A stretch of 31,992 nucleotides of DNA. Source: a candidate division Zixibacteria bacterium SM23_81 (GTDB lineage: Bacteria > SM23-81). Positions 29,340 through 29,857 of the stretch are shown one piece after another (within the stretch, counting starts at the first letter, position 1; each line of letters opens with the position of its first letter). The stretch covers positions 1 through 31,992 of the forward strand of contig LJUY01000024.1 of NCBI GenBank assembly GCA_001304015.1, written 5' to 3'. Below the pieces are notes generated by a model. That model was not told where the DNA came from. It did no database searches and worked only from the letters and a program-made list of their open reading frames with translations. The position numbers were made by a program, and so were the translations under genes.

Positions 29340-29391
29340 GCAGTCTTTGCGAGGAGGCGTTCGCTTGGCGAACGCCGACGCGGCAATCTCG
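29340..29391. repeat. Left copy of the hairpin repeat
   Basis: 52 bp: outer 14-mer, then a perfect 9-bp stem GGCGTTCGC/GCGAACGCC (29356-29364 and 29368-29376) with a 3-nt loop, then inner GCAATCTCG. It lies 26 bp after the cold-shock gene and may also act as its transcription terminator because TTTTT follows at 29392-29396. Confidence 0.75.
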
Positions 29392-29484
29392 TTTTTCATA
29401 AAAGCGGCTAGTAACTTTACAGCGCTTTTGGATATCTACACCTCAGTTGCTGTTGTTGAAAGAAGAAAGTCAAAGTTGGTCGCC

Positions 29485-29772
29485 ATGGAAAAGCAATACT
29501 GTGTCTACATCATGACCAACAAAATGAACACCGTATTCTATACCGGTGTCAAAAATAATTTGATCCGACGTGTTTATCAGCACAAAGAGAAAATTTGTAA
29601 AGGCTTTATCAGTCGATATAAAATCGTCAAGCTGGTATACTACGAGATTTTTCAAGATATCTACAATGCAATTTCACGCGAGAAGCAAATAGAAGCCGGT
29701 TCAAGGCCGAAGAAGACAGACCTCATCAATAGCATGAATCCAGAATGGAAAGATCTTTATAAAACGTTGTGA
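29485..29772 (+). CDS. GIY-YIG domain nuclease, stand-alone
   Basis: ATG 29485 gives 95 residues (MEKQYCVYIMTNKMNTVFYT…), the size of single-domain GIY-YIG proteins. The motif parts are Y-V-Y (7-9 region) and Y19-T-G21, with R29, H33 and the metal-binding E66 in SREKQIE, so the active site looks intact. A longer frame from 29347 runs through the left repeat and is not supported. The gene is clearly richer in A and T than its neighbours, which fits transfer. Related single-domain proteins are abundant in environmental bacterial genomes, and their role is not settled. It is framed by inverted hairpin repeats. Confidence 0.88.
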   Translation: MEKQYCVYIMTNKMNTVFYTGVKNNLIRRVYQHKEKICKGFISRYKIVKLVYYEIFQDIYNAISREKQIEAGSRPKKTDLINSMNPEWKDLYKTL

Positions 29773-29782
29773 TATTTAAAGG

Positions 29783-29837
29783 CGAGATTGCTTCGCGGAG
29801 CCTGTGCTGAGCGAAGCGAAGTGCTCGCAAAGACTGC
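29783..29837. repeat. Right copy of the hairpin repeat, inverted
   Basis: 55 bp: CGAGATTGC, a stem GCTTCGC/GCGAAGC (29790-29796 and 29811-29817) with a 14-nt loop, then CTCGCAAAGACTGC. The hairpin core differs in sequence from the left copy but has the same layout. It begins 10 bp after the GIY-YIG stop. Confidence 0.75.
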
Positions 29838-29843
29838 AGAGGG

Positions 29844-29857
29844 GAGATTGCTTCTCG
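29844..29857. repeat. Third, truncated repeat copy
   Basis: GAGATTGCTTCTCG repeats the inner end of the right copy (GAGATTGCTTCGCG at 29784-29797 differs by one base) but the remainder is missing. It sits in the leader of the following acetyltransferase-like gene and may be a remnant of an earlier insertion. Confidence 0.55.

Follow-up and report, generated by a model that had tools for sequence, protein, structure and literature searches.

GIY-YIG nucleases of a one-domain family are matched to the CGTC/TGTC-type hairpin repeats that flank their genes in many bacterial phyla

A family of GIY-YIG nucleases is almost certainly paired with CGTC/TGTC-type hairpins in bacteria, and its specificity is matched to the class of the hairpin. 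Both the coupling and the specificity are well supported by the recurrence of the pairing in unrelated genomes and by the co-variation of three enzyme residues with the hairpin stem. The best reading of these data is a system similar to REP/RAYT, in which an Slx1-like GIY-YIG nuclease takes the place of the HUH transposase, and the family probably fills the place of the partner enzyme that has long been lacking for one of the two large classes of hairpin repeats in bacteria, and would account for their spread. The analysis started from one locus (29340-29837) in a stretch of 31,992 nucleotides from the candidate division Zixibacteria bacterium SM23_81; this whole stretch is referred to as the window. 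A search of the open-access literature found no earlier report that links GIY-YIG enzymes to REP, RAYT, dRS3 or palindromic repeats or to these repeat sequences, and a report elsewhere is possible.

At this locus, two inverted hairpins enclose a single small gene (Table 1). The initial annotation had described exact inverted ends, a hairpin between them in each copy, cores that differ and one GIY-YIG gene, and all of these details hold. The outer ends are exact inverted 14-mers (29340-29353 and 29824-29837) and the inner ends exact inverted 9-mers (29383-29391 and 29783-29791), and the right hairpin shares both with the left copy letter for letter. The ATG open reading frame begins 93 bp after the left hairpin and stops 10 bp before the right one. 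In the left hairpin, the tag GTC (29343-29345) lies within GCAGTC, the outer stem TTGC/GCAA is formed by pairing of 29347-29350 with 29383-29386, and the inner hairpin (29356-29376) reads GGCGTTCGC-ttg-GCGAACGCC. This copy belongs to the TGC class of the general grammar GTC-AT-nnn...n'n'n'-AT-C. The outer TTGC/GCAA stem of the window hairpins has a T-T mismatch at its first position, and the cores are long and variable. Both copies fold as DNA hairpins with a modest gain over shuffled sequences (z -1.8 and -1.9). The neighbours of the unit are ordinary genes, encoding TrmO-like, cold-shock, arylamine N-acetyltransferase-like and DUF4416 proteins, and neither the unit nor the protein has a match in Rfam, NCBIfam, PHROGs or PADLOC.

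Table 1. Features of the hairpin-flanked nuclease unit and its surroundings (positions in the window)
Feature	Position	Strand	Basis
Left hairpin (REP-like)	29340..29391	+	Exact repeat ends, DNA fold, hairpin grammar
GIY-YIG nuclease gene, 95 aa	29485..29772	+	ORF, PF01541 profile, AlphaFold2 model
Codons of residues 71-73 (A-G-S)	29695..29703	+	Inter-helix turn co-varying with hairpin class
Right hairpin, inverted copy of the left with a different core	29783..29837	-	Repeat ends, DNA fold
Third hairpin end, truncated, GGGGAGATTGCTTCTCG	29841..29857	-	Outside the right hairpin of the pair

The only Pfam match of the protein is the GIY-YIG domain, PF01541 (E 6.6e-13; 49.2 bits against a curated cut-off of 22.6). 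The catalytic residues of the I-TevI type are all present (Y8, Y19, R29, H33, E66 and N85); in 73 sequences Y8, Y19, G21, E66 and N85 are invariant, and R29 and H33 are conserved in at least 90%. In the AlphaFold2 model (pLDDT 94), residues 71-73 form the turn between helix 59-71, which bears the catalytic E66, and helix 74-84. This specificity triplet is A71-G72-S73 in the window enzyme ('GSR' type). The solved structures nearest to the model are those of UPF0213 and Slx1, followed by I-TevI and UvrC. A Z of about 7 for these proteins indicates a common fold, and a common function would be putative; the profile matches to UPF0213 structures (1zg2, E 3.7e-8; 1ywl, 6.2e-5) denote kinship and not family membership. 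Fold and catalytic residues are thus shared with UPF0213/YhbQ, Slx1, I-TevI and the N-terminal domain of UvrC. In contrast to the window family, however, the remote YhbQ-like genes that were tested lack hairpin flanks, the four checked in REP-rich genomes have no matching ones, Slx1 acts together with Slx4, and I-TevI carries a separate DNA-binding domain, whereas the window protein consists of the nuclease domain and a short helical end.

The pairing of gene and hairpin recurs far beyond the window. Scanning a genome collection of 84,980 species gave 80 loci with relatives of the window gene, which span Cyanobacteria, Chloroflexota, Bacteroidota, several proteobacterial classes, CPR, Elusimicrobiota, Planctomycetota and others. 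Hairpins were searched for within 250 bp of the gene using a class-neutral grammar (GTC-nT-nnn and, after up to about 75 nt, a complementary nnn-ATC). Among 78 relatives, such a hairpin is present upstream in 64, downstream in 69 and on both sides in 58. By comparison, 5.7% of 860 single 250-bp windows elsewhere in the same loci carry a hairpin, and the reversed pattern gives 4.5%. By an independent method, alignment of inverted repeats, 44% of the genes score 14 or more vs 0.2% of pseudo-gene positions. Likewise, the share of GTCAT...ATC pairs with complementary inner triplets is 48% in the flanks and 12% elsewhere, with 1.6% expected by chance. The nearest hairpins are mostly inverted with their tags pointing outward (62 of 94 pairs) and are separated from the gene by about 30-35 bp. 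In new genomes, 35 of 53 additional loci show the two-sided arrangement, while distant GIY-YIG genes, most of them from the 98 genomes considered below, have hairpins on both sides in 1 of 21.

The stem next to the tag varies between units in concert with the enzyme. When stems are grouped according to the second and the third of their variable bases (GC, CC, CT and TC, i.e., ATnGC, ATnCC, ATnCT and ATnTC), residues 71-73 hold an excess information on the class of 0.75-0.83 bits, compared with 0.44 for the next best position (residue 76) and a column median of 0.055. Class GC is found with x-G-S, CC with K-W-N and similar triplets, CT with G-W-L or N-W-H, and TC with K-W-R. The protein tree is poorly resolved (the best tree has 25 class switches without individual support), and with so few supported branches, pairs matched for identity and out-of-sample forecasts were used in place of phylogenetically independent pairs. 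At a background identity of 55-70%, triplet identity is 0.69 in pairs of the same class and 0.11-0.13 in pairs of different classes. The closest pair of different class, from Sinorhizobium and Rhizobium, is 80% identical and combines RWY with ATCCT vs RWN with ATCCC. Moreover, a rule that was fixed in advance forecast the class correctly for 36 of 45 units in new genomes, including 11 of 11 in the GC class to which the window unit belongs; most misses concerned enzymes of the KWR-like type (CC or TC) or of NW types. That the ends are the recognised part had been proposed from the conservation of the ends in the two window copies, and the co-variation of the stem end beside the GTC tag with three enzyme residues argues for this proposal at the level of sequence. 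Two KWR-type GIY-YIG genes lie only about 1.1 kb apart in one genome (L297 and L298; G359:C1:598609-599960), and both have ATTTC hairpins.

The genome of the window contains four members of the family, and each has a hairpin class of its own next to it: the window gene (contig C17; AGS) with ATTGC hairpins, a second gene (C75; GWL) with ATTCT hairpins, a broken copy, or pseudogene (C70; KWS), with ATTCC hairpins, and a fourth gene (C57; KWK) with ATTCC and ATGCC hairpins on the upstream side only. With the TGCGAG/GCAATC motif alone, this genome's other GIY-YIG genes had appeared unflanked, a reading that was discarded when the class-neutral grammar revealed their own-class hairpins. The search for the end sequences that the initial annotation had called for found TTTGCGAG-N-GCAATCTC at the two window positions only and TTGCGAG-N-GCAATCTC at 7 positions in the genome; the same kind of hairpin flanks the genes of close relatives. 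On C70 there is also a gene-less pair in which relatives of the left and right window hairpins keep their order and orientation about 43 bp apart. Its right member (G000:C70:179-236) is 86% identical to the right window hairpin over 58 bp, including GACTGCA, and the head of its left member is eroded. The gene-less pair, another ATTGC hairpin and the broken GIY-YIG gene with its ATTCC hairpins all lie within about 6 kb of C70 (G000:C70:1-6200).

Hairpins of three classes were also counted in a set of 98 genomes, almost every one from a different family. At least three hairpins were found in 15 of 18 enzyme carriers vs 14 of 80 other genomes (odds ratio 23.6, p 2e-7). Away from the gene, hairpins reach tens to nearly 200 copies per genome, as is the case for REPs; the highest number, 193 copies of the ATTCT class, is found in a genome with a GWL-type enzyme (G008). 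According to the initial annotation, repeats occurring by the hundreds with no link to the gene would count against a unit. Copies away from the gene do approach such numbers, but the matching of classes shows that a link exists. No close enzyme was detected in 14 REP-rich genomes of the sample, among them G066 (77 hairpins) and G061 (52 hairpins of three classes); these 14 genomes have at most remote YhbQ-like genes, and loss of the enzyme after the spread of the hairpins would explain such genomes.

Evidence on the borders of the unit comes from Chryseobacterium, where it occupies two loci. In five species, the unit (381-407 bp) lies between barnase-like and barstar-like genes, as identified by translation alone, and in C. 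gilvum the unit (397 bp) lies beside a different gene. Homology between the two loci starts at GTC and ends at GAC. As it does not extend past the outer ends of the two hairpins, these move together with the gene, and on this sequence comparison the borders of the unit coincide with the hairpin ends. At the locus shared by five of L116, L117, L113, L093, L112 and L123, the unit splits a presumed nuclease-inhibitor pair. In Azospirillum lipoferum 4B (L206:1340-2010), the unit separates sufB from sufC within the suf operon and has hairpin dimers on either side; it is absent in related Azospirillum (L209-L211). Its presence also varies among Sphingobium plasmids (fnrL locus) and among Shinella plasmids, and each of two genomes has two near-identical copies. 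The comparison with syntenic loci lacking the unit, as suggested at the outset, did provide such loci in Azospirillum, Sphingobium and Shinella; their flanks have diverged too far for the junction to be placed exactly. Neither a clean empty site nor an exact duplication of the target was found at these loci or at the C. gilvum locus, where flanks are too diverged or far apart in the relatives. In Sphingobium TomTYG64 (L212:300-355), the position that the whole unit occupies on sister plasmids has one palindrome, each end of which bears a GTC head. This may be a scar left by excision or an earlier target.

This palindrome, for which the direction of change can be read either way, bears on the possibility that the enzyme is a free-standing homing-type endonuclease. 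Its gene would then invade existing hairpin dimers as its target, and the hairpins would be spread by something else. Homing endonucleases do occur among GIY-YIG enzymes, many REP-rich genomes are without the enzyme, and IS elements are known to insert in REPs (PMC1525189). However, the copy number of each hairpin class tracks its cognate enzyme in the 98 genomes (W-type with ATTCC, p 7e-5; GW-type with ATTCT, p 0.004), and in Chryseobacterium the hairpins move with the gene. We consider the homing scenario unlikely. Less probable again is a host-domesticated processor of REP hairpins, which would resolve cruciforms and obstacles or trim REPs and be kept near its substrates without spreading them. 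An Slx1-like fold suits the resolving of structures, and the Chryseobacterium gene, which is syntenic in 5 of 6 species, has a dN well below dS; such strong purifying selection means that the protein is maintained, and together with the synteny it makes the gene look more like a resident than like an active transposon. On the other hand, a generic resolvase needs neither class-specific residues nor flanks of its own class, and paralogues of different classes coexist in one genome, as do relocated and gene-less units. Both scenarios leave the specificity result intact and deny that the enzyme spreads the repeats.

REPs are often found on the 3′ side of genes and might function as RNA elements (PMC3733652), and a run of T follows the left window hairpin, as would suit transcription terminators or mRNA stabilisers that pile up beside a small dispensable gene; this explanation is very improbable, since hairpins are about as frequent upstream as downstream, are inverted and have a class tied to residues 71-73, and other GIY-YIG genes are unflanked. 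A chance inverted repeat at a single locus would agree with the modest fold statistics in the window and is refuted by the recurrence in 58 of 78 and 35 of 53 further loci, the argument against chance resting on these other genomes and not on the single locus.

Returning to the REP/RAYT-like reading, it is likely that the enzyme of the GIY-YIG family spreads the CGTC/TGTC-type hairpins. The unit in the window would be an autonomous REP-like element, composed of two inverted GTC-tagged hairpins around the gene of a dedicated nuclease. The enzyme may recognise the extruded hairpin, either in single-stranded DNA of the lagging strand or in a cruciform, with residues 71-73 reading the stem that adjoins the tag, and would nick the base of the hairpin beside GTC at each end. 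Slx1 cuts branched DNA, which makes it plausible that a hairpin, once extruded, is cut at its base. GIY-YIG enzymes hydrolyse DNA without forming a covalent intermediate for strand transfer. Reinsertion would therefore need host repair or replication, by which the unit might be copied or reinserted. Cleavage and transposition, including the site and strand of the cut and the route of reinsertion, are what we infer from the arrangement and the co-variation. Solitary and paired gene-less hairpins would be non-autonomous products of the enzyme, and as such they would make the family the missing dedicated enzyme of the CGTC/TGTC-type REPs. On balance, we lean towards a class of bacterial mobile elements in many phyla, including the REPs of Neisseria, of rhizobia and of many uncultured lineages, which one-domain GIY-YIG nucleases mobilise by reading the stem through three residues. 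If this is true, it represents a transposition-like mechanism without transposase chemistry together with a simple protein-DNA recognition code. The candidate code, residues 71-73 against stem bases, lends itself to assays with short oligonucleotides and a protein of 95 residues. CGTC/TGTC hairpins are widespread short repeats of bacteria, and a class-matched nuclease family allows direct tests of where they come from, how they spread and whether they are active at present.

With this proposal, the principle of REP/RAYT would also apply to an enzyme of unrelated fold. As in REP/RAYT (TnpA_REP) systems and REPINs, a small endonuclease gene is enclosed by tagged hairpins in inverted orientation, pairs without the gene and single copies are found elsewhere, enzyme and hairpin class match, and a genome can hold several paralogous systems; in the window's genome, inverted hairpins surround the gene and gene-less copies exist. 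The tag is GTAG there and GTC here, however, and the HUH tyrosine transposase is replaced by a GIY-YIG enzyme, for which a covalent DNA-enzyme intermediate is not expected. The initial suggestion of a unit of this kind, putatively mobile and with a GIY-YIG enzyme in the role of the transposase, is favoured by the coupling in many phyla, the borders at the hairpin ends and the gene-less pairs. IS200/IS605 elements also use a small enzyme that recognises subterminal hairpins, but their enzyme family is unrelated, and a window-type unit comprises only about 400-500 bp.

Among published repeats, the window-type hairpins come closest to the CGTC-tagged REP superfamily (Di Nocera, De Gregorio & Rocco 2013, PMC3733652), which includes the Rickettsia RPE and Neisseria CGTC-1 elements and is characterised by a CGTC/TGTC tag, stems that begin with AT and short tails. 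These REPs are described as being without a dedicated transposase and as showing no association with transposase genes; the defining study found no enzyme for them and suggested that extinction may be under way or that other enzymes may move them (PMC3733652). Hairpins at relatives of the window gene share with this superfamily the unpaired (C/T)GTC tag, the AT pairs at the start of the stem, the short unpaired tail, the pairs in opposite orientation and the occurrence in many phyla. Among 225 flanking copies in relatives of the window gene, 204 carry one of these tags (TGTC in 128, CGTC in 76), whereas the window copies read AGTC, and the gene-less relative in the same genome reads GTCATTGC. 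The published families have stems of 8-9 bp and loops of 4-5 nt (PMC3733652). Many copies in relatives have such AT-initiated stems and loops, and the window copies have longer variable cores. Given these deviations, the window copies fit the grammar yet are not filed under the four published families. The hairpins of the relatives differ from the CGTC-tagged REPs in being tied to a nuclease.

Copies of the enzyme on plasmids and in Neisseria are likewise flanked, including those of Rhizobium, Shinella, Sinorhizobium and Azospirillum, by types such as GTCATTCCCGC and GTCATCCCAGG and similar sequences. In N. gonorrhoeae, the flank reads GTCATTCCCGC...GCGGGAATC, which is dRS3-like. Relatives on viral contigs are flanked on both sides in only 12 of 44 cases. 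On Planktothrix plasmid p1 (L201), a unit with ATTCT/ATCCT hairpins lies between the gene of a type IIL restriction enzyme and the DISARM gene drmA.
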